Positions 4,835-55,100 of a stretch of 64,000 nucleotides of DNA are shown in pieces (position 1 is the stretch's first letter; every line of letters starts with the position of its first letter). The notes below the pieces were generated by a model. It made no database searches, was not told where the DNA came from, and saw only the letters and a list, made by a program, of their open reading frames with translations. Position numbers and translations under genes: made by a program. Source of the DNA: an uncultured Methanobrevibacter sp. (GTDB taxonomy: Archaea > Methanobacteriota > Methanobacteria > Methanobacteriales > Methanobacteriaceae); the NCBI RefSeq assembly GCF_946184425.1, contig NZ_CAMHFP010000001.1:1-64000 (forward strand). The letters are read 5' to 3'.

Positions 4835-4844
4835 ATGTGATTTT

Positions 4845-5627: not shown

Positions 5628-5684
5628 TTTTTTCCTGAAAATATATAACGTAAGCTGCCAAATATTTAACCAGAGGAAAAACTT

Positions 5685-6077: not shown

Positions 6078-6078
6078 C

Positions 6079-11005: not shown

Positions 11006-11017
11006 GATAAAACCTCA

Positions 11018-19599: not shown

Positions 19600-19742
19600 A
19601 ATTTAATTTATCTTTTTCATTAATAATTAATTTTATGTCAAATATTTTTGTCTAAAACTGATATTCATTCAAATTTTTTAGTTTAAAGGAATTACAGTTT
19701 TGATTAATTTATTATAGGCAAAATTAGAAGTTTGTATAAAAA

Positions 19743-21367: not shown

Positions 21368-21892
21368 TCAAGCTTTAATACTGTTCATAAGTGCATATAA
21401 AACACTATCTGTGAAATCATGGTTTTTTAAAGAGGAATCTTCATTATAAACTTTCCACAAAACAATTGACTGGAAGGTTATGGAAAATACCATCACGCTC
21501 AATGCTGTGGAATCGATATCTCTGACTTTTCCCTTTTCTATTTGTGCTTCGAAGAAAGCTTTAATTTTCAAGATAATCGCACTGGTAATTCTTGAAATTA
21601 AGAGTTTTCTGTTGGTTATGTCTCTCACTTCTTCCATTGCAAGCTTTATTACGCTGAACTCTTCATCCGGAAGATGTAACAGTTCATAGAAATTCCTTTT
21701 AATGTAATCCTCAATCTCCTCATCTCCGGTGAAATCAAAAATATCCTCAAGTTTGCTAATAAGTATATTCATGTAATAGTTTTTAGTCGCTTCAACCAGA
21801 TTCTTTTTATTGTCGAATTTTCTAAAAACAGTTGCCTCATTGACTCCAGCTTGCTTTGCAATCTTTTTTGTGGTGGTCTTTTGCAATCCCAC
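21368..21892 (-). CDS. TetR/AcrR-type regulator, 5' end probably frameshifted
   Basis: A TetR-family regulator. The helix-turn-helix TTTKKIAKQAGVNEATVFRKFDNKKNLVE is intact in sequence (shown here in two overlapping parts: TTTKKIAKQAGVNEATVFRK, then FDNKKNLVE), followed by an all-helical ligand-type domain. The open frame begins only at GTG 21892, after helix 1. The missing part (IIKATFELLQEVG) is encoded in frame just upstream, but with no start codon before a TAA. Another frame from ATG 22005 supplies a plausible N-terminus (MKTELMTRNQVKKKL... FIEKHK). One base missing from the A-run at 21927-21930 would join them. The gene is therefore frameshifted, mis-sequenced, or uses the internal GTG with a shortened DNA-binding domain. 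Targets are unknown. Confidence 0.65.
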   Translation of the reverse strand: MGLQKTTTKKIAKQAGVNEATVFRKFDNKKNLVEATKNYYMNILISKLEDIFDFTGDEEIEDYIKRNFYELLHLPDEEFSVIKLAMEEVRDITNRKLLISRITSAIILKIKAFFEAQIEKGKVRDIDSTALSVMVFSITFQSIVLWKVYNEDSSLKNHDFTDSVLYALMNSIKA

Positions 21893-22177
21893 TTCCTGAA
21901 GAAGCTCAAATGTTGCTTTGATAATCTTTTATGTTTTTCTATAAAAAAGTAAAAGTTATTCAGTTTTTTTTTCACTTGATTTCGTGTCATTAATTCAGTT
22001 TTCATTTTTCAAAATTTCCGGTATCATGAATTTATAAAAAATAGCAAATGTTTTTGACGGCAGTTATTTTGGAGTATTGGCAATCAGATTATGCTTTCTT
22101 TGCAGGTTAAAAATCAGATATTTTTGCCAGACACTATTTTTAAATAAAATATTTTACATATCTAATTATCAAGTGGT

Positions 22178-24382
22178 ATGATGAAAATTAGCAAGATTAT
22201 TTTTTTTATTATGATTTTAATTATTTCCCTATCCTGTGTCAGCGCATCAGATAATGCTACTCAATCACTTCATGACAATAATACCATTTCAACAGGAGAT
22301 GCGGAAATTGCAAATGAAATAAATGTAACATTTGATGAAAAGGTCTATGAACAGGAATTGACAAACATCACGGTCGAAATTCCTGAAAACACATCAGGAA
22401 ACTTGGAATTGAGGATAAATGATTACACATTTTTCAATCAGTCAGTCAACTCATCAGTAAACATTCCGATGGGGCTGCCTCCTCAGAAGTTTCCAGTTGT
22501 GGTTCCAAACGTCTGGCCGCCTTTTGACTCATCAATATATAAGGTATCTGCATTCTTCAACGATGTGGAGTTGGACGTGAACCATGATTTGATTGTGATG
22601 AAGTATCCTAAAGACCACTCTCCGGTATTTCTGATTCCCGAAGAGGTGCTGCAGTTCGGCAAGTCCTATGCGTTCATGCCTGCAGTTCTCTTTCCAAGAT
22701 CTGCCGGTGGCGTTGTGGAAGTCTATCTGGATGAAAAGCTAATCAACAGAACCAGTGTAAAAGGTCCTTTCGTCTATTTGAACGAAACACTGATAACTTC
22801 TCTTGGCATGGGGACCCATAAGCTGATGATGAATTATTCCGGTGACGATTACTTCCTTCCTTATTCCGGCATTTTAACATTCAATGTAACAAATGCTGTA
22901 ATAGGAATTCCTCAAAGCATTTATCTTGACCATGACGACTGCATCACTGTTGACACACAGTCCAGCGGGTATGTAAGCGTATATGTCGATTCAAAATTGG
23001 TCAAAAAAGGGGCACTTGACAAAAAAGGCGAGTTCCTTTATTCCCTTTTCAAAGATGTCACCTGCGGGGAGCATGAAATCATGGTAGTCGTTTCAGCAAA
23101 GGACTTCACAAGAACAAAAACAGTTAAGGCAAATGTAACATATTCTATGAATATGGACTCATATTCCACTTTCAGATACGGTCAAAATAACCATGTTTCT
23201 GTTTACATGCCCCATGACATGTCTTTAAATCTGTTTAAAGTAACAATCAACAACAAAACAGCCACTGCTAAAAAGGAAGATAATTATCTTCTGATTGATA
23301 TATCAAATTTAGCCGTCGGCAACTACACAGTCAGCGTCACATATCTCGGAGACACCAAGTATTATCCGATGTCAGTCAGCGGTAATTTCTCAGTTGCATA
23401 TGAAATCGACATTCCATATTTTGCAGATTTCAATTGCGGTTCTGCTGCGGATATAATACTTCCAAGTGATGCAAACGGAAGTTTTGAAATATACCTTAAT
23501 GGAGTACTCTACAAATCCGTAAAATTGACCAACGGTAAGGCTTCAATAAAACTGGATAATTTGAATCCGGGCAAATACAATATATCTGCAAGATATGTCG
23601 GAAGCGATTATGATGTGGATGAAAAGAACGCAACTCTGATTGGATGGCCTGACATGACATACGAAACCACTGTACGTGTGGGAGATAAGAATGTGCTTCA
23701 CTTCAAAATCCCTAAAAACTGCAAAGGTAGCATATCACTCAAAATTGGTCAAAAAACATATTCATCAACCATTAAAAACGGTGTTGCAACAATTGACCTT
23801 TCAAAACTCAGCGTTGGAGACTGGGACTTTGACCTGAACTATGTCGGAAGTGACGGATATAATGAAACATACTTCATAGGGGTCTATGTTTCTCAGGTTC
23901 CTATAAAAATCGTGGCTTTAAACAATAAACTAACCTACGGTGTCGGAACATATAAGGTTAAAGTAACCGGAACTGACGGAAAAATAGTTAAAAATGCTTT
24001 GGTGACATTTAAAATCAACGGCAAAACATTTAAAAAAGTCAAAACAAACTCACTTGGTATTGCAAGCGTTAAGATCCCGACAATATATGCTCCTAAGTTG
24101 TATTCAATAACTGCAGTATATAAAAATGCCGTTCTGACTAAAAAGGTACTGGTCAATCATCTGATTACATTAAAGGTATCTAAAAAATCATCAAAACTAA
24201 TCATTTCCGCCAAAGCACTTAAAGGCAAAGTTGTCGTATTTAAAGTCGGTGGAAAAACATTCAAGGTAAAAACCAATAAGTTAGGTGTCGCTAAGATAAT
24301 TGTCAAAAATCCTAAAGTCAAAAAACTTGTTGTTGGCGCAAGCTATCTCAAGGACAGTGTCAGAAAAATCATTGTCCTCTAA
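22178..24382 (+). CDS. Secreted adhesin-like protein with Ig-like repeats (734 aa)
   Basis: The signal peptide IIFFIMILIISLSCVSAS is followed by successive Ig-like domains of about 90 residues with the recurring ending (A/N)YxVxxxYxGD/S (for example GNYTVSVTYLGDTKYYP and GKYNISARYVGSDYDV). The last 160 residues are lysine-rich, with TFKINGKTFKKVKTNSLGI and FKVGGKTFKVKTNKLGVA, a two-domain module shared with the next two genes. There is no C-terminal membrane helix, so wall retention may be by charge or binding to pseudomurein (inference). ATG 22178 is followed by another ATG at 22181; AAGTGG lies just upstream. A T-rich tract after the stop is a likely terminator. Confidence 0.85.
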   Translation: MMKISKIIFFIMILIISLSCVSASDNATQSLHDNNTISTGDAEIANEINVTFDEKVYEQELTNITVEIPENTSGNLELRINDYTFFNQSVNSSVNIPMGLPPQKFPVVVPNVWPPFDSSIYKVSAFFNDVELDVNHDLIVMKYPKDHSPVFLIPEEVLQFGKSYAFMPAVLFPRSAGGVVEVYLDEKLINRTSVKGPFVYLNETLITSLGMGTHKLMMNYSGDDYFLPYSGILTFNVTNAVIGIPQSIYLDHDDCITVDTQSSGYVSVYVDSKLVKKGALDKKGEFLYSLFKDVTCGEHEIMVVVSAKDFTRTKTVKANVTYSMNMDSYSTFRYGQNNHVSVYMPHDMSLNLFKVTINNKTATAKKEDNYLLIDISNLAVGNYTVSVTYLGDTKYYPMSVSGNFSVAYEIDIPYFADFNCGSAADIILPSDANGSFEIYLNGVLYKSVKLTNGKASIKLDNLNPGKYNISARYVGSDYDVDEKNATLIGWPDMTYETTVRVGDKNVLHFKIPKNCKGSISLKIGQKTYSSTIKNGVATIDLSKLSVGDWDFDLNYVGSDGYNETYFIGVYVSQVPIKIVALNNKLTYGVGTYKVKVTGTDGKIVKNALVTFKINGKTFKKVKTNSLGIASVKIPTIYAPKLYSITAVYKNAVLTKKVLVNHLITLKVSKKSSKLIISAKALKGKVVVFKVGGKTFKVKTNKLGVAKIIVKNPKVKKLVVGASYLKDSVRKIIVL

Positions 24383-24383
24383 T

Positions 24384-24403
24384 TTTTTTTTATTTTTTTG
24401 CTG
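24384..24403 (+). terminator. T-rich termination tract
   Basis: Two long T-runs directly follow the stop of the 734-residue adhesin gene. Archaeal RNA polymerase stops on such U-rich tracts without needing a hairpin. The next gene has its own leader and ribosome-binding site 60 nt further on. Confidence 0.45.
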
Positions 24404-24467
24404 TTTTTGCATAATTTTTATTATCCCTTAATATTATAACTAATATTGTATTGGAATGGGGATAAAC

Positions 24468-27400
24468 ATGAATGTAAAAAAGATAATGTTTTTTAGTATT
24501 TTGCTTTTAATTTTAACAGTAGGTTGTGTAAGTGCAACGGATAACTTAACTCAGGATGTAAGTCTTCCGGATGATAATTCACATGATATGGAAAGTAGAA
24601 TCCTTGAAACAATCGATGATGAGAGTCTGGGGGATGTCACATATGAATTTGACGTCAGTCCAAACCCTCAAAAGGAAATTGAATACGGCAGGGACTTGCT
24701 TTTGAATGTAATCCTGCCTAGTGACATAAGCGGAAACATATCCTACACTGTCAATTCCAAAAGTTTCAGCATAGGTCAGGACAAGCTTTATTCCGATGCG
24801 GAAAACTATGGCGAACCATCCATTCGTATCAATGCCAATGATTTGAAATACGGACTCAATACATTATCATTTACATATGTGGGTGAGGACTATCCTCAAA
24901 AGACAATAACTAAATCCTACACTCTTGAAAGCAGCATAAAGCTCAATGAACGTTATGTGGGATGGAGTGATGACGGACATGTGACATTAACCCTTCCGGC
25001 AGATGCCAACGGTAACCTGGTTATTTATGAACTGATTTTTTATGACTTGCCGGATGACATTTGGGGATATGGTGCAAGATACAACCAGATTGCGGCTGCC
25101 CCACTTACAAACGGTTTTGCAAATGTTTCAGTTTCCAATTTAAACCCCGGACGCCATTACATTTATGCCAACTATACTGGCAGTGATTACAGGGTCAATT
25201 TTGAATTCAGCCTCAATAACATGGCTCTTGAAAAGGCGATATATGAGAAGGAATATGATGCGTATTTTGAAGTAATCCCAAAGATTGATTTGCCAAGCAG
25301 AATATATACTTCCAACGAATATATAATTGATTTCAGATTGCCTGAAAGTTATAATGGCATTTTAACAGTAAATGTGGGCAATGAAGAGAGAAATTTCACA
25401 GTAAGTAATGGGAAAGTTTCATTTAAACTATTCAATATAGAATCTGCAGGTCATGTCGCAGGAGAAGAGTTTGATTACATAAACATTAAGGTATTCTATA
25501 ATGACAATCGCTACAACTATAAGTTCGATAACTCATATGTGGTTTTCGTATCTGATGCCCAGTCAGTAAGCGAGTTTGATGTGATAAACTATACCAAAAA
25601 GGTTTTGAAAGGTGAAATCAACGACATCAGTATGGCATTTCCAGAAGGGTCCTCCGGAAGGGTGGATATTTTTCTTGACGGTGAAAAAATTGATGAGGTG
25701 TCAGTCAGTGGCAATATTTTGGGTTATGACCTTTCAACACAGAGCATTGATTTGGGTTCTCATAAACTGACATTTCAATATGTGGACGATGGGAATATCG
25801 TAAAAACAAAATCAATAGATTTTGAAGTGACATACATTGATGTGGACTATCAGGACACAATTGAAATAGGTCCTACTGCTGGTGGAAATACAATAAACGT
25901 AAGGCTTCTTGATGATGCGACAGGTAGCGTAAGGATATCAATAGACGGTGGAACTGCAGCTCAGGGAACAATCGAGGATGGAGGATACATCTTTGATATT
26001 AGAGACATTTCCATCGGAAACCACGACATCGAGGTAAGCTATTCAGGTAATTATCCTGCATATTCACTCAAATTCACAATAAACGCAATTCCTCAACAGA
26101 ACATCCAGCTCAACGACATAATTTACGGTCAGCACAATAACGTTACCTTGGAATTGCCTGAAGGCTCAACAGGAACCGCAACACTGACAGTTGGAACCAA
26201 GAAATTCACAGCCAAAATCAATGACGACGGTGAAGCTGTCTTTGATGTGTACGGTCTCAGTCAGGGAAGCTATTCCTGGACTTTGGACTATCAGGGCGAT
26301 GATGTATTTCCTGCTTATAAAAGCACAGGATCTGTAAGGGTTGTCTATAAGATTATAAGTAATGCGGATTACAGGGACAGGGTATATGCTGATGAGGATG
26401 TCACATTCACTTTGGTGCTGCCGACAAATGCGAAAGGTAGTCTCGTTCTCAGCCGGTACAGTGAAAGCAAGGGAAGCTTTGAGATAATTGACTCCGCTAG
26501 GGTGATAAATGGAAAAGCTCAAATAGTCTTTTTCAATCTAAATGTTGGTGAAAATGTATTCAAAGCCGAATATTCAGGACAGGATTATGCTGTGATTGCA
26601 TTCAATGATTCTGTTCAGGTCATAAATCGAGCAATACTTCCTGAAAACAAAGGAATTCTTGTTGGAAATCCTGCAGAATATGAAATTCAATTGGAAGATG
26701 ATGCCAATACGACATTAAGGGTTTATATGGAAATAGATGGCAGCTACCGTTTGATTCAGCAGAGTGAATTAATCAACGGACATGCAACAGTCACATTGGA
26801 CAATCTGTCTGTGGGATTGTACAATCTCAAATTCGAGTCCGGAAGCGGATGGTCCCATAAGGTTTATCTTTCTGTCGATGATAGTGTTTCATGGAAAATA
26901 ATTCCGAAGGTGAAACTGGGTGAAAACAATGTGTTTGAAGCCAGATTGCCGTCAAACACATCTGGAACATTCACAATTACAGTATCTCATCCGGTATATT
27001 CATATTCACAAAAAACTCTTCACTTACTGACTGTGAAATATGACAATGGATTTGTGGCAGTTCCCTCATCAATGTTATATGTTGGAGAATATAAGGTTTT
27101 GAATTTTACATTCAACGACACCACATACGGTGTCAACGAATTCACAATTCCTGATGCAGACCTTGCCAAATTCATAATCGAAAACAGGCCAAGCGTTAGG
27201 GTTTCAAAGGTAAATTCCACTTTAACAATAGAATTTCCAAAAGACGCAACAGGGGAAGTCATTATTCCATTGGCGGGCAGGCAGTACATAAGGACTTTGG
27301 ATATGGGCAGAACTGTTATATCAGGTGTTGATCCTAATCTGGAAAGCATCATCCTCACATATCTCGGAAGCAAGATGTATTCTCAGATTGTCAATGGAAA

Positions 27401-28022
27401 AATTGAGGTTATGGATTTGAATGTTTATAATGCTTCACAGCCTTCTCATAATCCTGATACACAAAATTCCTCTTCCCAAATCCGAGTCGCAGCTAAGGTG
27501 ATTGCAAAAGACACTGTTGTGGTCTATTCTGCCAAAGGAAAATATAATGTGGCGGTCTATGGAACTGATGGAAAAGCTGCTGCGGGTGTTTATGTGGTCT
27601 TTAAGATTGCCGGAAAACAGGTGGCTAGAATCAAGACAAATTCCAGAGGCATTGCAAGCTATACTGTAAACCTGAATCCTGGCGTTTATAAGCTTTCAGC
27701 CACATCTTTGGGAAAAACAGTAACTAAAAAATTAACAGTAAAACATGTTTTAGTTCTTAAAAGTGTCAAAATCAAAAAATCAGCAAGATATCTGGTTTTG
27801 CAGGCTGCTTTAAGCAAAATCAATGGAAAATATCTCGTTTCTAAAAGGATAGTCTTCAAGTTCAACGGCAGAAACTACATTGCAAAAACAAACAAGTATG
27901 GAATTGCAAAGCTGACTGTCAAATCAGTCATCCTTAAAAAACTCCGAGTGGGAAGAAACGTCGCATACCAGGCAACATATCTAAAAGACACTGTTAAAAA
28001 ATCTGCAAAGGTTTTAAGATAA
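24468..28022 (+). CDS. Secreted adhesin-like protein with Ig-like repeats (1184 aa)
   Basis: It has a signal peptide (IMFFSILLLILTVGCVSAT) and about ten Ig-like repeats of 85-100 residues, each with a conserved LP-x-(D/N)-A-x-G start (for example LPADANGNL, LPTNAKGSL, LPSNTSGTF) and an LxxGxYxxxxxYxG end. The lysine-rich C-terminal module (FKIAGKQVARIKTNSRGIAS and KFNGRNYIAKTNKYGIAK) matches its neighbours. ATG 24468 follows GGGG; ATG 24456 lies at the Shine-Dalgarno itself and is less likely. Tandem paralogue of the genes on both sides, probably by duplication. Expected role: surface attachment to partners or matrix, by analogy with other methanogen adhesin-like proteins. Confidence 0.85.
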   Translation: MNVKKIMFFSILLLILTVGCVSATDNLTQDVSLPDDNSHDMESRILETIDDESLGDVTYEFDVSPNPQKEIEYGRDLLLNVILPSDISGNISYTVNSKSFSIGQDKLYSDAENYGEPSIRINANDLKYGLNTLSFTYVGEDYPQKTITKSYTLESSIKLNERYVGWSDDGHVTLTLPADANGNLVIYELIFYDLPDDIWGYGARYNQIAAAPLTNGFANVSVSNLNPGRHYIYANYTGSDYRVNFEFSLNNMALEKAIYEKEYDAYFEVIPKIDLPSRIYTSNEYIIDFRLPESYNGILTVNVGNEERNFTVSNGKVSFKLFNIESAGHVAGEEFDYINIKVFYNDNRYNYKFDNSYVVFVSDAQSVSEFDVINYTKKVLKGEINDISMAFPEGSSGRVDIFLDGEKIDEVSVSGNILGYDLSTQSIDLGSHKLTFQYVDDGNIVKTKSIDFEVTYIDVDYQDTIEIGPTAGGNTINVRLLDDATGSVRISIDGGTAAQGTIEDGGYIFDIRDISIGNHDIEVSYSGNYPAYSLKFTINAIPQQNIQLNDIIYGQHNNVTLELPEGSTGTATLTVGTKKFTAKINDDGEAVFDVYGLSQGSYSWTLDYQGDDVFPAYKSTGSVRVVYKIISNADYRDRVYADEDVTFTLVLPTNAKGSLVLSRYSESKGSFEIIDSARVINGKAQIVFFNLNVGENVFKAEYSGQDYAVIAFNDSVQVINRAILPENKGILVGNPAEYEIQLEDDANTTLRVYMEIDGSYRLIQQSELINGHATVTLDNLSVGLYNLKFESGSGWSHKVYLSVDDSVSWKIIPKVKLGENNVFEARLPSNTSGTFTITVSHPVYSYSQKTLHLLTVKYDNGFVAVPSSMLYVGEYKVLNFTFNDTTYGVNEFTIPDADLAKFIIENRPSVRVSKVNSTLTIEFPKDATGEVIIPLAGRQYIRTLDMGRTVISGVDPNLESIILTYLGSKMYSQIVNGKIEVMDLNVYNASQPSHNPDTQNSSSQIRVAAKVIAKDTVVVYSAKGKYNVAVYGTDGKAAAGVYVVFKIAGKQVARIKTNSRGIASYTVNLNPGVYKLSATSLGKTVTKKLTVKHVLVLKSVKIKKSARYLVLQAALSKINGKYLVSKRIVFKFNGRNYIAKTNKYGIAKLTVKSVILKKLRVGRNVAYQATYLKDTVKKSAKVLR

Positions 28023-28235
28023 CTGGAATTTTTTTCAATTATTTTTATATTTTTTTTAATTATTTATAATTTCTTTTTATTTTTTAAAAAATATTCTTAT
28101 AATTTTATTAAAGTTGAATTATGTATTTAGTTTATCTTATTTTCCCGAATAATTCATTAAACTTATATGTTACATGTAATAAAAATAATACATGTATTCA
28201 AGTTGAATATAATTAAAAATAATTTGGGGATAAAA

Positions 28236-31200
28236 TTGAATTTAAATAGGATAATGTTGTTGTCCATATTTTTGCTTGCGATTTTAACAGTAGGTGTGGC
28301 AAGTGCAAGTGAAAATATCACGGACAACCTAGAAATTAAAGATACGGTTTCTCAAGATGATAACCTGGCCGCTTCTAATGATTTGGTTTCAGATGAAGTT
28401 TTGAGCAATCCTAAAGATGTTGAAATCAAACTTCCGGACAATATAAAGGCAGGTGAAACTTTTTATATTAATGTAACTCTGCCAGAAGATGATTATGATA
28501 ATGAGGTTTATTATTCTGGTAATGTATTCTATCACTTTGATGATGATGATGAAGAGGATGATTTGCCTGCGGGTGGCGGATTCAATACAATTCCATATAA
28601 AACAAACACCTTTGGATCATGTACTCTTCATGTCAGTTTCGTTCCTGATGATACTAGTCTCTTAAATCCAAAGGAAGTATCCAAAGAATACAACATTAAT
28701 GACTATGCTATAGAAGTCACTGCGGAGGATGACGAATGGTTTTATGGTAAAAGCACTGAACTCTCTTTCAGCATACCTTCAGATACTGGAAAATATGTTG
28801 TAGATGTAAACGGTAAACTATATAATTTAGATTTGGAAGAATATGAGGAGTCTATCAATTACGGCCCTGCAAATGCTGCTAATGTCGTAGTAAAAGTCAC
28901 ATACAATGGTGACGGTAAAAAACTCAAGGCAAAAACAGTTACAAAAGTATTTGAAATCCTTCCTTATGTAAACTGCCCTAAGGAAGTTCCTTTTGCAACT
29001 TCAAAGGATGTAACAGTCGCTTATGCTGACGGTGAATCTATTGATTTCAAAATTAAACATTATGATAATGAAGTTGAGGATGATGTTGTCATTGATGAAA
29101 AAACAGTTACAGTAAAAGATTCAAAGGCAGTATATTCCATTCCGTCCAATCTGCAGTTCGGTGACTACTATGAACTTGTAGTTAGTCATAATGGTAATGA
29201 ATATTTTAACTCTTTTAAGATTACTCCACAAATAGATGTTCCAAACACATTTTACAGCAAGGAAACATATAATATTCCAGTTACCTTCCCTGAACAATAT
29301 AAAAACATGGATATAGAAGTTTTCATTGGCGATAACACTGTTTTTGAAGGCAAATTGGATTCCAATGCAAAAACAAACATAATATTGTCCAATCTGGAAG
29401 CTAATGATGGAACAACATTTTACATTAAGATTTCATCTGGAGATGATTTTTTAACAGAATATCAAAAGGATGTAAAAGTTTCAGATAACGATCCTTCTTC
29501 TGTAGACTTATCTGCAGATATTTCAAAGCAATTTGTAAAAGGACAATCTTTAGATTTTGAATTAGCTCTGTTTGATGATATTTCCGGTGAAGTAGTGGCA
29601 TACATAGATGGTGTTGAAGTTGCAAGAGAAGATGCACGCGAGTATGTTTCATTCTATCTTAAAACTGATGATTTAAAAGTAAACTCTCACACATTAACCT
29701 TAAATTATACTGGAGATGACTATTATAAACCTGCAAGCGTTTCATATGTGTTTGATCTGGTTGAATACAAGGTCGTCATTCCAGAAAATCCATGCTATAA
29801 TAATGGGGACAGGATATATGTTGAATTCCAGGAAGACGCAACAGGTACCTTAATTTTCTATGCTGATGGAAAAGAAGTACAAAGATTCTCTGTTGAAGAT
29901 GACAGGTTCGAAAGTGAAAACGGATATGCTGTAGGTTGTTTGGTGGATGATTTGAATCTTGCTTTAGGACCTCATGACATTAGAGTTTATTATACAGGAA
30001 ACAAAGCTAAACTGGATTTAACTAAAAAAATCAATCTGGATTATACTGTACAGTTTGCTATAGAGGAGTATTATTATTATGGTGAAGATAACTTTATTGA
30101 AATTACAGTTCCACAAGATGCAACAGGTTCATTTAAGATAAATATTGATGGAAAAGAAGTAGAATACACTACGGAAGAGTCTGATTTAAGGGTAAATATT
30201 TCAGAGTTCTTCGGTGAACATGTAGTGACTATTGAATATGCCGGTGATTCCAAATATAATCATCCATTAACTGTTAACACTACATTCAATGTTATTTCAT
30301 ACATCAATTTTGATGATAATATTCCATACAATTATGATGGAGAAGTCATTTCATTATTATTGCCTAAAGATGCAAAAGGTAATCTGGTTGCTGAAATCGA
30401 TGATCAAGTCTATGTCAAAAAAGGATTTGAAAATGGAAAAGCTGTTATTTCATTTAAAGATTTAGATATTGGTAATTATAATGTTCGTGCATATTATGAA
30501 GGCGATGATTATGATGTGGATGAGGTAGTCAGGGATTTACAAATTGAAGGAAAAATTGAACAATCCCATAAAGACGGAGAAATTCCATATAATCAGGCGG
30601 TTGATTTTTATATAAACCTTCCGAAAAATACCGTGGGTACACTGAAAGTAACTTTAAACGGCAGGGAATTCACCAAGGAAATGGTCGACGGTTATGCAAA
30701 AGTAACAGTTTCCGGATTCAGATTAGGTGAAAATTCATATGCAGCGGAATTCATATGTGACGCTGGTGATGATAGACCTGATTACAGCACTAATACTGAA
30801 GGATCTTTAGATGTAATTCCTGTTGTAAAAATATCTGATAATATGGTCGTATTCGGCAAAAATATAGTTTCTGTATTTGCTCCTTCAGGATTTAACGGTT
30901 ACATTGAATATGAAATTGATTATGCTACCTATAAACAGGTGAAAGCAAATTCACAAAAAACAGACATATCATTAGGCAGTCTGACAGCAGGTGCCCATGA
31001 ACTTTACATCAGAGTTTTTGATGAAGATGAATATGTTTTTGGAGAATACTATGATTTGAACGTATCCAAAGCAGCTGCTCCTAAATTATTTGCAACTTCA
31101 GCTGTTGTCTATTGCGGCGATTACTATAATCGGGCAAAAGTATTGGGTGTTGACGGCAAACCTCTCAAAGGAGCTAAAGTGTTATTCAAAGTGGGCGCTA

Positions 31201-31604
31201 ACAAGTATGTTATCAGATTGACCAATGCCTACGGTATTGCAACATTGCTCATGAACTACAAACCTGCAAAATATGTTGTTCTTGTCAAGTATTCAACACA
31301 AACCGTAAAACCTATAGTTCTTGTTAAAAAGGTTCTTACACTAAACAATTTAATTGTCAAAAAATCTGCCAAACAGATTATATTGGCTGCAGCCCTTAAA
31401 AAAGGAAAAATTCCAATTAAAAACAAATGGGTTGTTTTCAAATTCAATGGCAGAACATTCAAGGCAAAAACCAATTCCCTTGGTGTTGCTAAGGTTGTTG
31501 TTAAAAACGTATTTTTCAAAAATCTTAAAGTAGGCAGAAACGTTATCTATCAGGCAACATACCTTAAAGATTTTGCAAGAAAAGTTGTTAAAGTAAGAAG
31601 ATAA
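28236..31604 (+). CDS. Secreted adhesin-like protein with Ig-like repeats (1122 aa), TTG start
   Basis: Third tandem paralogue: signal peptide (IMLLSIFLLAILTVGVASAS), an acidic first region, about ten Ig-like repeats with the VP-x-DATGSF type motif, and the same lysine-rich end (WVVFKFNGRTFKAKTNSLGV). I chose TTG 28236: its context GGGGATAAAA-TTG-AAT aligns base for base with GGGGATAAAC-ATG-AAT of the preceding paralogue, and it puts the signal peptide at the N-terminus. The longer frame from 28167 has no binding site and adds a non-signal extension. The protein is much more acidic and less GC-rich than its neighbour. A hairpin with T-run follows the stop. Confidence 0.83.
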   Translation: MNLNRIMLLSIFLLAILTVGVASASENITDNLEIKDTVSQDDNLAASNDLVSDEVLSNPKDVEIKLPDNIKAGETFYINVTLPEDDYDNEVYYSGNVFYHFDDDDEEDDLPAGGGFNTIPYKTNTFGSCTLHVSFVPDDTSLLNPKEVSKEYNINDYAIEVTAEDDEWFYGKSTELSFSIPSDTGKYVVDVNGKLYNLDLEEYEESINYGPANAANVVVKVTYNGDGKKLKAKTVTKVFEILPYVNCPKEVPFATSKDVTVAYADGESIDFKIKHYDNEVEDDVVIDEKTVTVKDSKAVYSIPSNLQFGDYYELVVSHNGNEYFNSFKITPQIDVPNTFYSKETYNIPVTFPEQYKNMDIEVFIGDNTVFEGKLDSNAKTNIILSNLEANDGTTFYIKISSGDDFLTEYQKDVKVSDNDPSSVDLSADISKQFVKGQSLDFELALFDDISGEVVAYIDGVEVAREDAREYVSFYLKTDDLKVNSHTLTLNYTGDDYYKPASVSYVFDLVEYKVVIPENPCYNNGDRIYVEFQEDATGTLIFYADGKEVQRFSVEDDRFESENGYAVGCLVDDLNLALGPHDIRVYYTGNKAKLDLTKKINLDYTVQFAIEEYYYYGEDNFIEITVPQDATGSFKINIDGKEVEYTTEESDLRVNISEFFGEHVVTIEYAGDSKYNHPLTVNTTFNVISYINFDDNIPYNYDGEVISLLLPKDAKGNLVAEIDDQVYVKKGFENGKAVISFKDLDIGNYNVRAYYEGDDYDVDEVVRDLQIEGKIEQSHKDGEIPYNQAVDFYINLPKNTVGTLKVTLNGREFTKEMVDGYAKVTVSGFRLGENSYAAEFICDAGDDRPDYSTNTEGSLDVIPVVKISDNMVVFGKNIVSVFAPSGFNGYIEYEIDYATYKQVKANSQKTDISLGSLTAGAHELYIRVFDEDEYVFGEYYDLNVSKAAAPKLFATSAVVYCGDYYNRAKVLGVDGKPLKGAKVLFKVGANKYVIRLTNAYGIATLLMNYKPAKYVVLVKYSTQTVKPIVLVKKVLTLNNLIVKKSAKQIILAAALKKGKIPIKNKWVVFKFNGRTFKAKTNSLGVAKVVVKNVFFKNLKVGRNVIYQATYLKDFARKVVKVRR

Positions 31605-33575: not shown

Positions 33576-33598
33576 TTTACACTTGAAATGTACCTCTC
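33576..33598 (+). promoter_or_regulatory. Single ORB-like element (origin recognition box)
   Basis: TTTACACTTGAAA at 33576-33588, followed by TGTACCTCTC, matches the six repeated elements at 38672-38951 but in opposite orientation, including the flanking GAG(A/G)GGT block on the complementary strand. The core equals what I recall as the mini-ORB of Methanothermobacter, bound by Cdc6-1. It sits at the edge of the long AT-rich region. Confidence 0.5.
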
Positions 33599-33672
33599 TT
33601 TAAAGGATTATTGGTGAAATGTTCGACATATTAAACAAAATTTATATAATATTCCAAAGTAAAATAATTTTG

Positions 33673-38145: not shown

Positions 38146-38571
38146 TTATTCCTGTTCGTCTGTGAGTTTATCAGATGTTGTAAAATCCGGTTCGATGTAT
38201 TCTCCTTCATCATATGCAGTTCCACTTTGGGATTCCAAATAGCTTTTTACCAGATCTGTAATAATTAAACCTAAATCGGATAATGCTTTGTTTGTTTCAG
38301 TTCCTTTGCTTAAGTCGAGTACACGAACTCCATCAGCTGTATTTCCTTTTTTAGGAATCATTACCATTGATATTGGTTCTACTCCTGCTCCAGCACCCAT
38401 CAAGTCGGTACCTTCATTTCCCATAAGGCTTTCGCCGGCTCCAAATCCAACACCCATTTTTATAACTGGAATTAAAACTTTGTCTTCAGTTTCGATTGGA
38501 GTACCGATTACATTATCAACATTTATAAGTTTACGTAATTCTTCAACAGTTGTTTTAATATTGTTTGGCAT
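38146..38571 (-). CDS. GerW/YtfJ-family protein
   Basis: A 141-residue GerW (YtfJ) family protein. Conserved parts are TVEELRKLINVDNVIGTPIE, the glycine-rich centre VGFGAGES...GAGAGVEPISMVMIPK, and an acidic tail. In Bacillus the relative YtfJ is needed for germination protein behaviour in spores; homologues in non-spore-formers and methanogens have unknown roles. It is the first gene of a three-gene operon read away from the repeat array at 38660-38973; its promoter should lie between 38572 and 38670. ATG 38571 has GGATGTGA upstream. Confidence 0.85.
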   Translation of the reverse strand: MPNNIKTTVEELRKLINVDNVIGTPIETEDKVLIPVIKMGVGFGAGESLMGNEGTDLMGAGAGVEPISMVMIPKKGNTADGVRVLDLSKGTETNKALSDLGLIITDLVKSYLESQSGTAYDEGEYIEPDFTTSDKLTDEQE

Positions 38572-38659
38572 AGTTTCACATCCTATCTTATTGGTTTATT
38601 ATCTGTTGTTAATCTTTAAAATATTTTTACTTTGAATTTCAGTATTACTTTTTTTGTTA

Positions 38660-38973
38660 TAATGACATAAGTTTCAAGTGTAACTTTTAAGTTTTAATTA
38701 TGTTACATCATTTTGAGAGGTGTATTTCAAGTGTAACTTTTCACATCTAAGTTATAAGAATTTTTCATGAGAGATGTGTTTCAAGTGTAACTTTTCACAT
38801 ATAACTTATAACTTTTTACTCAAGAGGTGTGTTTCAAGTGTAACTTTTCACATATAACTTATAACTTTTTACTCAAGAGGTGTGTTTCAAGTGTAACTTT
38901 TCACATCTAAGTTATAAGAATTTTTCATGAGGGGTGTGTTTCAAGTGTAACTTTTCACATATAACTTATAAGC
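38660..38973. repeat. Six 53-54-bp tandem repeats with ORB cores; candidate replication origin
   Basis: TTTCAAGTGTAAC occurs at 38672 (followed by a variant), 38725, 38779, 38832, 38885 and 38939, a spacing of 53-54 bp. Copies 2-6 are preceded by GAGAGGTGTA, GAGATGTG or GAGGGGTGTG-type blocks and followed by TTTTCACAT. The complement GTTACACTTGAAA matches the mini-ORB that I recall for Methanothermobacter Cdc6; the G-rich block resembles the G-string of full ORBs. All six point the same way; an inverted single copy is at 33576. AT-rich DNA flanks both sides, and orc1/cdc6 is at 43607. An upstream regulatory array for the GerW operon is the main alternative. Confidence 0.7.
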
Positions 38974-39023
38974 AATATATTTTTTATATCATAAAATTTT
39001 CAAAAAAAATAGTAAAAACAGAA

Positions 39024-40166
39024 TCATAAGTATGATTCTGTAATAGATGCTACACCAGCACCAGCTTCATCAATTACACCTAAACCTTTCAAGGTCATAC
39101 CGATAGCTGCAAAGGTTTGGGTTAATTCTTTGTAGGTAACATTTCCCATGTGTCCGATTCTGAAAATATTTCCTTTTAAGTGATCTTGTCCGCCAGCTAA
39201 CTCTACGCCATATTTGTCACGTGTAGTTCCTCTGAAATCAGCATCAGTAATGCCTTCAGGCATTTTTACTGCAGTAACAGTAGCGGATGAAACAGCTTCA
39301 TCAGCGAATAATTCTAATCCTAATGCTTTAACAGCTGCAACACTTGCTTTTGCTGCTTTGTGGTGGCGTGCAACTCTATTGTCTAATCCTTCTTCTAAAA
39401 CCATTTTTAAAGCTTCATTCATTGCATAAGTAAGTGAAACTGATGGTGTGTATGGGGTTTGAGGAGGTACTTTGTCCCCACTTTTTTTAGCTGCTTTCAT
39501 ATCTAAATAGAAAGTGTTTGTTTCCACTTTATCAGCAGCTGCCCATGCATCATCACTGAAGGTAATTGCGCCCATTCCCGGTGGTGCTGCAATACATTTT
39601 TGTGATCCGGTAAGACATACGTCAATGCCGAATTTGTCCACGTTTACTTCATCTCCCGCAAGAGATGATACGGTATCTACGATGTATAATGCATCATAAT
39701 TTTTCATTACTTTACCGATTTCTTCGATAGGTGCAGCGACACCTGTGGAAGTTTCGTTGTGGATTACACTTACAGCTTTTATGTCTTCATCTGCATCTAA
39801 TGCTTCTTTAATAGCTTCGGGAGTTACAGCAGTTCCCCATTCGACCGCCAATTCTTGTGCGTCGATTCCATGAGTTTGAGCTATTTTCATGAAACGTTCT
39901 CCGAATTTTCCTCCTACAACATTTAACATTTTTTCTCCAGGTGCTACAGTATTTGCAATACCTGCTTCCATAGCTGCAGTTCCAGATCCAGTTAATAAAT
40001 AAGAATCATTTTGGGTTTGGAAAACTTTACTCATTAATTCAGTAGTTTCAGTTAAAATTTCACCATATTTAGCGCCTCTGTGGTTAACAACAGCTTGAGA
40101 CATTGCATTAAGCACTCTTGGGTGTACTGTTGTTGGTCCTGGAAGCATTAATAAAATATCGTTCAT
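39024..40166 (-). CDS. Class V aminotransferase (alanine-glyoxylate/serine-pyruvate type)
   Basis: A 380-residue PLP-dependent enzyme. LLMLPGPTTVHPRVLNAMSQ and the HRG motif at the start, GSGTAAMEAGI, HNETSTGVAAPIEEIG, DTVSS, and the PLP lysine in LTGSQKCIAAPPGMG define the alanine-glyoxylate/serine-pyruvate aminotransferase family. In methanogens such enzymes may serve amino-acid synthesis; substrate cannot be told from sequence alone. GGAGGAAT precedes ATG 40166. It stands alone, ending 50 bp from the repeat array. Codon choice is regular and suggests good expression. Confidence 0.88.
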   Translation of the reverse strand: MNDILLMLPGPTTVHPRVLNAMSQAVVNHRGAKYGEILTETTELMSKVFQTQNDSYLLTGSGTAAMEAGIANTVAPGEKMLNVVGGKFGERFMKIAQTHGIDAQELAVEWGTAVTPEAIKEALDADEDIKAVSVIHNETSTGVAAPIEEIGKVMKNYDALYIVDTVSSLAGDEVNVDKFGIDVCLTGSQKCIAAPPGMGAITFSDDAWAAADKVETNTFYLDMKAAKKSGDKVPPQTPYTPSVSLTYAMNEALKMVLEEGLDNRVARHHKAAKASVAAVKALGLELFADEAVSSATVTAVKMPEGITDADFRGTTRDKYGVELAGGQDHLKGNIFRIGHMGNVTYKELTQTFAAIGMTLKGLGVIDEAGAGVASITESYL

Positions 40167-41049: not shown

Positions 41050-41697
41050 ATGATTAAAAGGATTTGTTTATTTACTGTGGGTTTGTTTATAATGTCTCTT
41101 GGAGTGGCATTTTCAATAGTTTCAACCCTCGGAACAACTCCTATCAGTTCAATTTCCTATTCTCTGGCATTGATAACCAATATAAATATTGGAATAACTA
41201 CTTTCATATTCAATGCAGCACTGATTTTCATTCAGATAATTATTTTAAGGTCAAGATTTAGGAAAAAAAGATTGCTCCAGTTCATAAATTGTGTAATGTT
41301 TGGTTATTTTACTGATTTGGCTCTTTACTTGGTTTCATTCATTCCATTTAATAATACATTTTCGTATTTCATTCTGTTTTTATTAATAAGTATATTTTTA
41401 ACAGCTTTAGGAATATTTATATACATGCCGGCCAATATAGCTCCTCTCCCCGGTGAGGGTTGTGTTGAAGCTGTTGCAATTGTTACAAACTGGAGGTTTT
41501 CATCAATCAAAATAGCATTCGATGCTTTAATGGTTATTGTTTCTCTGGTGATGTGCGGTTTGTTTTATACAAATATTTTAGGTGCTGTAAATGTCGGAAC
41601 AATTATCTCTGCATTTATGGTTGGATTTACTTTAAGACAGATTTCCAATCTGTATTCCAGATTAACCGGAAGGCAAATCAATGTGGTAAATCAGTAA
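41050..41697 (+). CDS. YczE/YitT-like integral membrane protein (215 aa)
   Basis: Paralogue of the preceding gene with the same helix pattern: FIMSLGVAFSIVSTLGTT-PISSISY at the start, YMPANIAPLPGEGCVEAVAI in the middle, and a C-terminal FTLRQISNLYSRLTGR. Only 15 nt separate the two genes. The end overlaps by 7 bp with the convergent Rpn-like gene (41691-41697), a tight arrangement that suggests a recent rearrangement on that side. Function unknown; likely a membrane complex with its neighbour. Confidence 0.73.
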   Translation: MIKRICLFTVGLFIMSLGVAFSIVSTLGTTPISSISYSLALITNINIGITTFIFNAALIFIQIIILRSRFRKKRLLQFINCVMFGYFTDLALYLVSFIPFNNTFSYFILFLLISIFLTALGIFIYMPANIAPLPGEGCVEAVAIVTNWRFSSIKIAFDALMVIVSLVMCGLFYTNILGAVNVGTIISAFMVGFTLRQISNLYSRLTGRQINVVNQ

Positions 41698-42638
41698 TTC
41701 AATATCTTGTCGATTTTAGCTAATGTGTCTTTATCCAAGTTATTTTTTTCTTTAATTTCCATTAATATTTTTTTTGTCTGTTTTATCTGTTTTTCGCTTT
41801 CTTTTAGTTGTTTTTCGCTTTCTTTTAGTTGTTTTTCGCTTTCTTTTAGTTGTTCTTGGTTTTGTTTTAGTTGTTTTTCCTTTTGTTCCAACTGTTCTTT
41901 CTTTTCTTCTAATTTCTCTCCATATAAATCGTATGCGATTATTTCTAGATCTGATTTAAATTGCATCATATTCAGTTCTCCTAATAATTCACTTCTTTTT
42001 TCATAATCCTCAAAATATTTAAAAATCATTATTTGCAATACAAATGATATGTCTCTTTTTAATTCATATCTTATATTCTTATTCCTTTTAATTATTTTAC
42101 ACATTTTTTCAGTAATTTTTTTAGCACACTCTGCCGGGGCAAAAAATGGTAGAAATCCTATGTCAAGTATTTCAGATTCTGATAATTTTATGTCATGTTC
42201 TGTTTTATATACAATATTTTTGTATTTTTTCTTTATTTCATTTTTTGTAAGATATTTATAAATGGGTCTTATTAGGTCAGTTTCACTTATGTGATATTCC
42301 TTGATTGAATTTTTTGGGTCTACGGTTATGATAATTATTGTTGTTACAGGCATGTTGTAGAAATATTCAGCAAAAATTCTATAGTCTGCAAATCTTTTCA
42401 TTTCATTTATTCCTACACTTTTTGATTGTGCTTCAATATTATTCAATTGATTTCCAGTTGTTTTGTATAAGCTATCCATTTTAAGATTTCTCATATCTCG
42501 AGTAATAACTTCGGTAGGATAGGATATTTCGTATTCATCTTCTAGCTTCAAATACCTGTGCAATAGTCTATTAAATACCATTATGGAGTATTTGTAGGAG
42601 ATATCATTTGGCTGAAATATGTGTATAGTCAAATCCAT
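41691..42638 (-). CDS. Rpn/PD-(D/E)XK nuclease-like protein with coiled-coil tail
   Basis: A 315-residue protein. The middle part MDSLYKT...NQLNNIEAQSKSV suggests the D-(ExQ/K) core of PD-(D/E)XK nucleases as in Rpn/transposase-like families; MKRFADYRIFAEYFYNMPVT follows. The C-terminal 80 residues are a charged coiled coil with perfect seven-residue repeats (KQLKESE), from a 21-bp DNA repeat. Rpn-type proteins promote recombination in bacteria; similar genes are frequent in Methanobrevibacter. Single gene with its own AT-rich promoter region. It overlaps the membrane gene by 7 bp at the ends. The nuclease call rests on motif pattern only. Confidence 0.65.
   Translation of the reverse strand: MDLTIHIFQPNDISYKYSIMVFNRLLHRYLKLEDEYEISYPTEVITRDMRNLKMDSLYKTTGNQLNNIEAQSKSVGINEMKRFADYRIFAEYFYNMPVTTIIIITVDPKNSIKEYHISETDLIRPIYKYLTKNEIKKKYKNIVYKTEHDIKLSESEILDIGFLPFFAPAECAKKITEKMCKIIKRNKNIRYELKRDISFVLQIMIFKYFEDYEKRSELLGELNMMQFKSDLEIIAYDLYGEKLEEKKEQLEQKEKQLKQNQEQLKESEKQLKESEKQLKESEKQIKQTKKILMEIKEKNNLDKDTLAKIDKILNY
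41789..41851 (-). repeat. 21-bp tandem repeat in a coiled-coil tail
   Basis: Three exact 21-bp units (starting 41789, 41810 and 41831) plus degenerate flanking copies. Each unit encodes seven residues, KQLKESE, exactly one heptad, so gain or loss of a unit leaves the frame and the coiled coil intact. Length variation between strains is expected. Confidence 0.8.
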
Positions 42639-43606: not shown

Positions 43607-44716
43607 ATGGGAATTGAAGATATTTTGATGTATGATGAAAGTCTTTTTCAAAACATAAATGCTTTTGATCCGGATTATATGCCTCAAAACTATAATTTTA
43701 GAGATACTCAAATGGAGGCAATGGCAATGTCAATAAGGCCTGCAATCCGTGGAGGTCAACCATCAAATGCAATTGTTTTAGGATCACCTGCTACAGGAAA
43801 AACAACAGCAATCAGAAAAGTGTTTGAGCTTGTTGAAAAAACTACAGAAAAGGTAGTATGTGTTTATATTAACTGTCAGTTGCATACAACTCGTTTTGGA
43901 ATATTTTCGCAGATTTATAAAAAGATGTTTGGTCATCTTCCTCCGGAAACAGGTGTTCCTTTTTCAAGAATATATGACCAGATCATGAAAGATCTTCAAA
44001 AGAATGAGAAATCATTGGTAATTGCATTGGATGATGTTAATTACCTTTTCCAAAGTAAAAATGCTAATAAGGTATTTTATGATATGTTGAGGGCATATGA
44101 GGAGTATCCTGGAGTCAGAACTGCAATTTTCGCTATTCTCTCTGATTTGGAATTCAAATATGCTTTTGATAAGAATGTCAATACAGTCTTCATTCCTCAG
44201 GAAATAAATTTTCCATTGTATTCATACTCTGAAATAGAAGAAATATTAAGAAATAGGGCTCAGGCAGGATTTTATCCAAATGTTTTAAGTGATGAGATAC
44301 TGGAACAGATTTCCATGTATACCTATGAAAATGGGGATTTGAGAATTGGAATCAACCTTTTAAAGTCATGCGGTAATATTGCGGAAGCTAATGCAAGCCG
44401 TGAAATTACTCAGGATCATTATGACCAGGCAATTGAGTCATTGGTTTCAATTAATATTCAGCAAACACTCGATTCATTAAATGATAGTGAAAGAAGTCTT
44501 ATAAAAATAATTGCTGATTATGATGGAGTGTATACGGCTGGTGAACTGTCTGGAATATTTAAAGAAAAAACAGGATCCAGTTATGCTTCATATAATAGAA
44601 CTTTGGATAAATTGGAATTCGTAAGATTAATTGATACCAAATTTACAGGAAAAGGGGTTAAGGGAAATTCTCGTGAAATTATATTGCGTTTTAACCCCGA
44701 TGATTATGTCATCTAG
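43607..44716 (+). CDS. cdc6: Orc1/Cdc6-type replication initiator
   Basis: A 369-residue AAA+ protein: Walker A GSPATGKT, Walker B LVIALDDVN, sensor region FAILSDLEFKYAF, and a C-terminal winged helix (LIKIIADYDGVYTAGELSGI) that would bind origin DNA. It is expected to recognise ORB elements and load the MCM helicase. Candidate ORB elements occur 5 kb upstream at 38672-38951 and at 33576. No intein. Length is normal for the family. The start follows a short spacer after MptE, without a strong ribosome-binding site. Confidence 0.92.
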   Translation: MGIEDILMYDESLFQNINAFDPDYMPQNYNFRDTQMEAMAMSIRPAIRGGQPSNAIVLGSPATGKTTAIRKVFELVEKTTEKVVCVYINCQLHTTRFGIFSQIYKKMFGHLPPETGVPFSRIYDQIMKDLQKNEKSLVIALDDVNYLFQSKNANKVFYDMLRAYEEYPGVRTAIFAILSDLEFKYAFDKNVNTVFIPQEINFPLYSYSEIEEILRNRAQAGFYPNVLSDEILEQISMYTYENGDLRIGINLLKSCGNIAEANASREITQDHYDQAIESLVSINIQQTLDSLNDSERSLIKIIADYDGVYTAGELSGIFKEKTGSSYASYNRTLDKLEFVRLIDTKFTGKGVKGNSREIILRFNPDDYVI

Positions 44717-51102: not shown

Positions 51103-51684
51103 ATGGCAAAGGCAAAAGCAAGACGTAGAGTACGTGATACATGGAAAGAAAAATCCTGGTATACTATTAAAACACCAGTAAACTTTGAAGATAAAGAAAT
51201 TGGAGAAACTCCTGCAAGAGATCCAGAACTTCTCATCGGAAGAGGAGTTGAAGTAACTATGAGAGAATTAACTGGAGATTTCTCAAAACAATATATTAAA
51301 CTCAGATTTGAAATTGATAATGTTGCAGGTGAAGTTGCAAACACCAAATTCACCGGTCACAAAACCACTACAGATTATGTAAGAAGCATGATTAGAAGAG
51401 GAACTTCCAGAATCGATGCTTCAGCTATTGTAAAAACCAAAGATGACCGTAAAATCAAACTTCAAGTATTGGCTGTAACTATCAGAAGAGCTAAATCTTC
51501 CCAACAAAAATACATGAGAAGTGTTATTGAAGGTTTACTCAAAGAAACCGCAGCTGAAAAATCATTTGACGATTTAGTAAAAGTTTGCGTAAATGGTAAA
51601 TTAGCATCTGAAATTTACCACAATGCTAAAAAAATCTACCCTCTCAAAAGAGTAGAAATCATCAAAAGTAAAGTAATTGAATAG
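51103..51684 (+). CDS. rps3ae: 30S ribosomal protein S3Ae (eS1)
   Basis: A 193-residue ribosomal protein of the eS1 family. WYTIKTPVNFEDKEIGETPA near the start and RTSRID-type RRGTSRIDASAIVKTKDDRK in the middle are characteristic, as is its small-subunit role near the mRNA exit. It is oriented away from the candidate origin at 38.8 kb, as is common for highly expressed genes. GGATGAT lies before ATG 51103. T-rich DNA after the stop (51695-51720) is a likely terminator. Codon usage is strongly biased (AAA, GAA, AGA). Confidence 0.95.
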   Translation: MAKAKARRRVRDTWKEKSWYTIKTPVNFEDKEIGETPARDPELLIGRGVEVTMRELTGDFSKQYIKLRFEIDNVAGEVANTKFTGHKTTTDYVRSMIRRGTSRIDASAIVKTKDDRKIKLQVLAVTIRRAKSSQQKYMRSVIEGLLKETAAEKSFDDLVKVCVNGKLASEIYHNAKKIYPLKRVEIIKSKVIE

Positions 51685-52138: not shown

Positions 52139-55100
52139 ATGAATAAAAAAACAATACTTATTTCTTTTTGCTTGTTTTTTGTATTCTTTTCAGTATTATC
52201 CTCTTCTTCGGCTTCTGATATCGCAGGAAATGCGACTTTAGTTGGTGTTGATGATAATCAAAATGATTTGAAAGCGATCAACACGCAGCAGGAGCTTCTC
52301 AAGGTTTCTTCAGGAACTTTCAGTCAGTTGAATGATATTGTAACAAATGATTCCATACCTTCGGGTGGGGTAATTAGCTTGAATTCAAGCTATAAATACT
52401 CTGATACCGATTCTGGAATAAATGGTATTTCTATAGGCAAAAGCATAACAATCAACGGTAACGGATACACATTGGACGCTTCCAGCAGGTCATCAATATT
52501 CAATATATTGGGCAATTCCCATGTAATATTGAAAAATCTCACATTTGTCAACGGATATGGTGATGATGGTGGTGCCATTAATGTAGGGGCAGGTTCAAGC
52601 ATTGAGCTTATTGACTGTATATTCTTAAATAACACTGCAACAAACAATGGTGGGGCAGTATTTATTAACAGCGATAGTCTAACATCAGATTCATTAATCA
52701 AGTCTTCCACATTTAAGGATAATACTGCAGCAAACGGCGGTTCAATATATGTCATGAGTTCAACATTGAATATTTCAGCATCTGAATTTACAGACAATAT
52801 TGCAAAATCCTGTGGGGGATCATTATTTGTTGATGGCATTCTTCACATTATCCAAACTGCCTTTGAAGGCAACCGTGCTTATAGTGGTGGAGCGATTTAT
52901 TTAAACGATACTTCTAAGACTAATTCTACAATAGAAAATTCCAAATTCAATAATTGTAACGCTACTGTTGATGGTGGTGCAGTTTACATAAGTGCAGATA
53001 ACGTTCATGCAAAAAATTTGATATTCGAAAATAATGTTGCAGGTGATGACGGTGGTGCAATATACTGGGAAGGTAACACTGGTGTTATCTACAATGTCAC
53101 CTGTAGAAACAATAAAGGTATAAGTATTGATAAACCTGACGGTACTACTTCAAGTACTCGCGGTGGTAGTATCTGTCTTACCGGTTCTAATGTAATCCTT
53201 TCAGATTCCAAGTTCACTTCAAGTTCAGCATATATGGATGACAATAAGAATTACTCTAAGGTTGATGGTGGTGCTCTATTCATCACAGGTAATGATGTAG
53301 TTGTTAGTGGTACTACATTTGATGCATGTAATGCTACCAATAATGGTGGTGCAGTATATGTCATTGGTAATAATACATCAATAATCAACTGTGATTTTAA
53401 AGACTGTATCGGAAGGGATGCAGGTGCTTTATACATTAGTGGAATTAATTGTAACTTGTCCAATTCTACCTTCACTGATAATGTAGCTTATGATGACGGA
53501 GGTGCAATATATTGGGAAGGTGATTATGGATATATGTATAACCTTACATGTGTGAATAATAAGGGTGTAAGTGGCTATGATCCTCTTGAAGGTGAATACT
53601 CCAACTCCAAAGGTGGAACTATCTGCCTTACAGGTTCTAATGTTACTTTGGACATCTCATCTTTCACCCAAAGTTCTGCAAAGGCTGATGGTGGTGCATT
53701 GTTCATTACCGGTAGTGATGTTAAAGTAATGCATTCTGACTTTGATGACTGTATTTCTACCGATAATCATGGTGGTGCAATATATATTATTGGTAATCGC
53801 ACTTCCGTTTCAAGCTGTACATTTGATAATTGCCATGTCAACAATCAGGATGTCGATAATCATCGTGGTGGAGCAATTTTTGTAGAAGGAAATAGTGCAC
53901 ATATTTCAGATTCATCATTTACCCATACTCATGCGCTCATTGGTGGAGCCATTTCCATTGAAGGTGATGACACTATCGTAGATAATTCCATATTCAGTAA
54001 TAATAATGCTATTGGACCTTTAGGCGGTTCCGGTGGAACTATTAATGTACAAGGTGCAGGTACTACTGTTTCAAATTCTAAATTCTTACAGGGGACTGCT
54101 GTTAATTATGGTGGTGCCCTATCTATATGGGGGCCAAACACAACTATTGTCAACAGCACATTTGACCAGTCAAAAACTACCTTATATAATGGTGGTGCGG
54201 TATTCGTAAATGGTGAAAATACGACTATTTCAAATTCAAATTTCACTAAATGTACTTCTTTAGGAGACCAATACGCCCGTGGTGGTGCAATTGATGTTCA
54301 GGGTGAAAATGCCAATATTAAAGATTGTAATTTTGATGATTGTGACTCACACTTCGGTGGGGTTATTCATGTAAGTGGTACAGATGCTTTCATAGGTAAT
54401 TCCAATTTTAAAGGAAGCGATGCTTATAGTGGTGGAGCGATTTTTGTGGAAGGTAATAATACTGTAATATCAAAGTCCAATTTCACAGATAGCGTTGCCA
54501 CTAACTATGGTGGAACAATTTATGTATCTGGAGCCAATGCCAATATTTCTGAATGTAATTTCAATAAAACCGTTGTTAAAAATTACAATGGTGGGGCTAT
54601 ATATATTGAGGGTGAAAACACTAACATAGAAAAATCCAACTTCACTTCCGCTGAAGCTTTAAACAAAAATAACCATGGTTGGGGTGGTGCAATATATATT
54701 CAGGGAGTAAATGCAGTTATTGACGAATCTAACTTTAATGACTGTAAGGCTTTTGAAGGTGGAGGAGCTATTTATTCATATGGTAATGGTGCAAGAATTG
54801 AGGATTCCACATTCAACTCAAGCACTGCTAAATATGGTGGTGCTATTTATTTAACCTCCTGGGGTGCATTGGTAACTCGCTCCAACATAAGTAATTGTGT
54901 AGCTGACCAAAACGGTGGTGGAATTTATGTTGCTGAGGGTAGTATTCAGATAAGTGAAAGTAATTTTGACGAATGTACAGTTAAAGGTACAGGTGCATCC
55001 AATGGCGGTGGAGCCATTTATATTAATGGTCTCGATACCCATATTTCCGCATCTAACTTCACCCATAACACTGTTCCAAGTGCCGCCCGGGGTGGATCAA

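Follow-up and report, generated by a model that had tools for sequence, protein, structure and literature searches.

Titration of an initiator by ORB elements is represented in the literature that we searched by one case, which is haloarchaeal and lies beside its own origin (PMC3936714). The Haloarcula hispanica element oriC2D contains 11 ORBs in 722 bp downstream of cdc6E, was without origin activity in tests, and lowers the activity of oriC2, a negative control that is likely exerted through Cdc6E titration (PMC3936714). The number of ORBs in elements of this type varies among species, being three in Halorubrum lacusprofundi (PMC3936714). ORBs are approached by A. pernix ORC1 via R345, R346, R367, and R369 (PMC9738581), and the oriC of M. 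ruminantium has been placed upstream of cdc6-1 by skew (PMC2812497).

The ORB array described here is located in the window, which is the whole 64,000-nucleotide stretch of uncultured Methanobrevibacter sp. DNA that was analyzed. Six exact copies of TTTCAAGTGTAAC start at positions 38672, 38725, 38779, 38832, 38885, and 38939, all on the (+) strand and with successive steps of 53, 54, 53, 53, and 54 bp, and these are the sole exact matches in the whole 2.23-Mb genome (83 contigs). A clear GAGAGGTG-type block accompanies five of the six copies, that of copy 1 being degenerate (ATGACATAAG). The array presents a compact target of about 320 bp and is housed in a 452-bp intergenic gap (38572-39023) with a GC content of 24%, flanked by a gerW-like gene on one side and an aminotransferase gene on the other. 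The initial annotation of this DNA, made from the sequence, had reported the six copies and their 53-54-bp steps, the G-rich block ahead of five of them, the gene-free AT-rich setting, a nearby orc1/cdc6 gene, and a ribosomal protein gene running outward. All of these hold: the positions are exact, the unit with the degenerate block scores 25 bits vs 33-35 bits for the others on the matrix described below, the cdc6 gene starts at 43607, 4.66 kb rightward, and the ribosomal protein is S3Ae (51103-51684, +). The genes and signals around the array are as follows.

38146-38571, − strand: gerW/ytfJ-like gene, left neighbor
38615-38629, − strand: TATA-like tract upstream of gerW, kept with or without the array; putative core promoter
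39018-39041, − strand: aminotransferase gene end, terminator-like hairpin; consensus match only
39024-40166, − strand: aminotransferase gene (alanine-glyoxylate type), right neighbor
43607-44716, + strand: cdc6-2 (P0001), with 1/4 ORB-contact arginines

Several genes separate the array from cdc6-2, the distance being 4.7 kb. One of the proteins encoded in between (41691-42638, 315 residues) has a repetitive EKQLKESEKQLKE tail and is found in only part of the clade. No RNA gene or tRNA was found at the array. The possibility that the array is the core promoter of gerW was rejected, as the TATA-like tract is conserved in species without the array. Elsewhere in the window, a defense-like cluster (232-9178) encodes PbeA-like and PbeC/DndD-like proteins of phosphorothioate-type systems and a helicase resembling a type IV restriction enzyme, and it is followed by two adjacent TIR-like proteins (10145-11842, weak ThsB/TIR matches). 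Very large surface-protein-like genes occupy 12358-31604 and 52139-64000 (2413, 734, 1188, and 1145 residues), with one such open frame of at least 3954 residues running past the window edge.

The relationship of the repeats to known ORBs was examined with a 24-position matrix trained on the oriC ORBs of other genomes, taken from cdc6-1-linked origins only. Its top seven matches in the window are the six units (25-35 bits) and a solitary inverted ORB (33 bits), the next match scoring 8.8 bits; the genome's own oriC ORBs score 30-32 bits on this same matrix. The matches are located as follows.

38661-38684, + strand: ORB unit 1, degenerate G-box and exact core, 25.1 bits
38714-38737, + strand: ORB unit 2, 35.1 bits
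38768-38791, + strand: ORB unit 3, 33.9 bits
38821-38844, + strand: ORB unit 4, 34.7 bits
38874-38897, + strand: ORB unit 5, 34.7 bits
38928-38951, + strand: ORB unit 6, 32.8 bits
33576-33599, − strand: inverted full ORB standing alone, about 5 kb to the left of the array, 33 bits

Judged by sequence, the six units are genuine ORBs of the Methanobacteriaceae type. The proposal that the repeats are ORB elements is thereby borne out, the same motif marking cdc6-1 origins across the family; the complement of the repeat core, as had been suggested, is presumably close to the Methanothermobacter mini-ORB bound by Cdc6-1. In eight genomes of the genus, a 22-bp ORB form (3 mismatches at most) was counted 10-16 times each, as against 0-2 times for a reversed control; the ORB matches lie mainly at oriC, its satellites, and the array. 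The same element is present in 16 genomes of 15 other genera, typically near cdc6-1, and an ORB cluster near cdc6-2 was found in none of these 16.

The arrangement of the units was also compared. All units of this and the related arrays examined are co-directional; no minus-strand ORB, and hence no convergent pair, occurs in any of them. Intervals of 52-55 bp account for 61 of 76 in the window array and related arrays, which agrees with the suggested spacing of about five helical turns, but intervals of 39-46 bp are also seen, so strict phasing, the other part of that suggestion, is not obligatory. Nor is the arrangement distinctive in itself, as had been thought, because cdc6-1 origins of some other genera likewise have co-directional ORBs 50-54 bp apart.

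The solitary ORB at 33576-33599 (−) lies about 20 bp ahead of the start codon of an open reading frame at 33619. A solitary inverted ORB is present about 4.6-8.5 kb left of the array in 7 of the 13 genomes checked, and farther away in one more. Solitary ORBs are also located about −10, +1.9, and +9.5 kb from oriC, on one strand throughout (contig C10 and oriC flanks). These oriC satellites are kept across the genus, an array-less species included, and may form an oriC-flanking ORB set.

The anatomy of the units was derived from 109 array units of this and related genomes and compared with 113 oriC units. An array unit consists of an ORB box and core, as at oriC, followed by a conserved stretch, CTTTTCACTTATAACTTATAA, which is missing from the 113 oriC units. 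The ORB core is near invariant across array units, and the spacers drift. We call the additional stretch box 2. Behind the last unit, most array loci carry an AT-only near-palindrome of the GTAATATATTTTTTAC type, which is absent from every array-less gap.

38735-38757, + strand: box 2 of unit 2 (AACTTTTCACATCTAAGTTATAA), array-specific
38789-38811, + strand: box 2 of unit 3
38842-38864, + strand: box 2 of unit 4
38895-38917, + strand: box 2 of unit 5
38949-38971, + strand: box 2 of unit 6
38972-38987, no strand: array-associated AT near-palindrome (GTAATATATTTTTTAC type, 2 mismatches), 3′ of the last unit

The AT-rich element flanks the array on one side only, after the last unit, and the 40-mer at 38976 (38976-39015) ranks in the bottom 0.5% of the window for stability. 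A sample of 800 kb from the closed genome of a relative, G043, has the near-exact GTAATATATTTTTTAC form only at the array. The G043 array is followed by tandem ATGTAAAAAATAYATTACTTATAAGTTATAC units without ORB cores. Box 2 as a common intergenic repeat was rejected, there being no enrichment outside arrays.

The genome encodes two orc1/cdc6 genes, one of the cdc6-2 type in the window (P0001) and one of the cdc6-1 type on contig C10 (P0002). Upstream of cdc6-1, in 22 genomes, two forward ORBs 48 bp apart are separated by about 105 bp of AT-rich DNA from two inverted ORBs 47 bp apart, and these oriC units are without box 2. GC skew, sampled from stretches of G043, switches once at cdc6-1 (39.7-40.8 kb) and in the opposite sense near 1.15 Mb: values between 40 kb and 1.1 Mb are mostly positive, and those beyond 1.18 Mb, across the end of the sequence and up to about 40 kb, are negative. 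The G043 array, at 271.7 kb, falls within the positive arm, about 230 kb from cdc6-1/oriC. With correction for gene strand and pooling over flanks of at least about 20 kb, GC3 skew changes from −0.068 to +0.071 across oriC (9 genomes) and does not flip across the array (+0.027 to −0.002, 13 array genomes), although this test would miss a rarely used origin. Hence the GC-skew check proposed by the initial annotation places the inflection at cdc6-1.

OriC and the array are the ORB clusters of this genome, and both skew and architecture point to the former as the active origin. The claim that the array is the chromosome's main replication origin, to which the ORBs, the AT-rich gap, and the cdc6 gene at 4.7 kb had pointed, is thus hardly tenable: the window's skew is positive on both sides of the array, part of the genus has no array and yet has oriC at cdc6-1, and in M. 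ruminantium too oriC has been placed at cdc6-1 (PMC2812497). In all likelihood, the array is a Cdc6-1-type binding locus and not the main origin. A replication terminus or fork barrier is unlikely, the array of G043 (0.27 Mb) being remote from the skew terminus (near 1.15 Mb). A plasmid or phage origin was likewise discarded, as the database search returned no similar record; three viral-contig matches to the pattern are repeats within long open reading frames and are unrelated.

In alignments, Cdc6-1 keeps all four of the ORB-contact arginines (YRR, SRGR) and Cdc6-2 keeps one of four (NR, GKGV), a pattern that is largely conserved in the genus. The expected binder of the array is therefore Cdc6-1, which is encoded elsewhere. 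The case for Cdc6-2 as the obvious binder by virtue of its proximity is weakened, its winged helix being without three of the four arginines. Box 2 could serve another protein, Cdc6-2 included.

Related loci were collected from assemblies of Methanobrevibacter, including many MAGs of rumen type, with cdc6-2 81-89% identical. The genus shares the gene order dcd-TPP enzyme-DUF2953-gerW-[array]-aminotransferase-YczE-mptE-cdc6-2-archease-rtcB, and whenever an array is present it occupies the gerW-aminotransferase gap, with 2-6 co-directional units. In array-less species this gap can be as small as 115-132 bp and contains no ORB. Outside the genus the exact paired pattern was not found; within it, 42 of 67 genomes have the pattern, one of them, G040, at oriC alone. 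Looser scans added some further arrays. The search in related genomes that the initial annotation had called for thus located the array in one Methanobrevibacter clade at the same site. In the cdc6-2 tree all array genomes fall into this clade (98/95), which has no array-less member among genomes with a readable gap, so a single gain of the array is the simplest reading of its distribution.

The distance of the array from oriC makes it probably a site of initiator control or holding and not a start point. Our preferred reading of the comparative analysis, to which we assign a probability of roughly 0.47, is that the array acts as a remote Cdc6-1-binding, initiator-sequestering regulatory (titration) locus akin to datA or oriC2D. 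This reading draws on (i) the rank of the ORBs on a matrix from other genomes and the rarity of full ORBs, (ii) the canonical oriC and skew switch elsewhere, together with the Cdc6-1 arginines, (iii) clade-wide conservation at the same site with a near-invariant core, gerW having its own TATA-like tract, and (iv) the Haloarcula hispanica oriC2D precedent (PMC3936714). Speaking against titration, the copy number falls to two in some species, which is modest for a titrator, and some intervals measure 39-46 bp; box 2 and the AT element are unneeded for simple titration and hint at an extra function; and a cdc6 paralogue at 4.7 kb and an unstable AT tract are features that origins often have.

These last features lead to the main rival of titration, a conditional or dormant second origin (a half-origin or iteron-like) with Cdc6-1 on the ORBs and perhaps Cdc6-2 on box 2, in which loading beside an AT-rich unwinding element would result in firing under some conditions only. 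We consider such an origin unlikely. In its favor are the AT element, which is of a type peculiar to array loci and which the core sides of the ORBs face, the cdc6 gene less than 5 kb away, and the co-directional ORBs that form part of cdc6-1 origins in other genera; archaea are known to possess dormant origins (PMC4595724). Against it, the skew switch seen at oriC is absent at the array (13 genomes), and none of the arrays has convergent ORBs; furthermore, the array lies 3-6 kb from cdc6-2 with several genes in between, not directly upstream, and array-less species retain cdc6-2.

The position of the array upstream of gerW in all array genomes examined, and the existence of transcription regulators of the Orc1 family (PMC9738581), would fit a role of array-bound Cdc6 in regulating the gerW-DUF2953 operon, comparable to Sulfolobus Orc1-2 and DNA-damage genes. 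This is improbable: the promoter-like tract of gerW is kept in species without the array, the distance between array and gerW varies widely among species (to about 400 bp in locus L049), and the motif is concentrated around oriC and the array instead of being dispersed upstream of many genes. Slightly less probable still is a centromere-like site of chromosome organization or segregation, either with Cdc6 co-opted or with another protein recognizing box 2. The tandem, regular, co-directional units, the gap on the origin-proximal side of the replichore, and the array-specific box 2 would suit such a site, but conservation within the unit is highest in the half that is the oriC ORB, and no segregation gene was recognized adjoining the array. 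A search for CbiA-type (ParA-like) proteins gave broad family matches alone.

Returning to titration, we propose the following model. Cdc6-1 molecules would most probably be loaded next to one another on the six ORBs, which share one orientation and are spaced about five helical turns apart. The array is in the origin-proximal part of the replichore and would be copied shortly after initiation at oriC; the two resulting sets of sites would draw Cdc6-1 off oriC, damping re-initiation. Box 2 and the AT element may bind a partner or tune occupancy. A more elaborate version, which we advance tentatively, is a remote, dedicated Cdc6-1 control locus that is unlinked to the origin under its control; its composite units and AT element, together with the solitary ORBs conserved in position around oriC and near the array, would keep account of the initiator across the whole chromosome, and Cdc6-2 may take part by binding box 2. 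The array bears on the largely open matter of how archaea limit initiation, and its clade-specific presence far from oriC offers a natural with/without comparison in gut methanogens. For origin-prediction tools it matters that a nearby cdc6 gene and ORBs do not by themselves mark an origin.

What the array has in common with iteron-type plasmid origins is a series of initiator boxes in one direction and with helical spacing, and an AT-rich tract behind them; unlike these origins, it is chromosomal, has no similar plasmid or phage record, and shows no skew sign of initiation. Like Escherichia coli datA, which titrates DnaA, it carries initiator boxes away from oriC in the origin-proximal replichore (PMC3936714), but datA belongs to the bacterial DnaA system, to which there is no homology, and the corresponding role of the array is a putative one. 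With the oriC of Methanobacteriaceae (the Methanothermobacter mini-ORB origin and M. ruminantium oriC) it has the GAGA[GC][GA]TGYR-TTTCAAGTGTAA element in common, whereas the oriC of the genus, upstream of cdc6-1, has ORB pairs (47-48 bp) that converge on about 105 bp of AT-rich DNA, marks the skew switch, and is without box 2. Like oriC2D, finally, the array is an intergenic ORB cluster with a species-variable copy number. Unlike oriC2D, which adjoins the origin and the initiator gene that it controls, the array is about 230 kb from oriC/cdc6-1 (in G043) and beside a cdc6 paralogue with a different DNA-binding face, and its units are all co-directional, repeat every 53/54 bp, and are each fused to a second conserved box.
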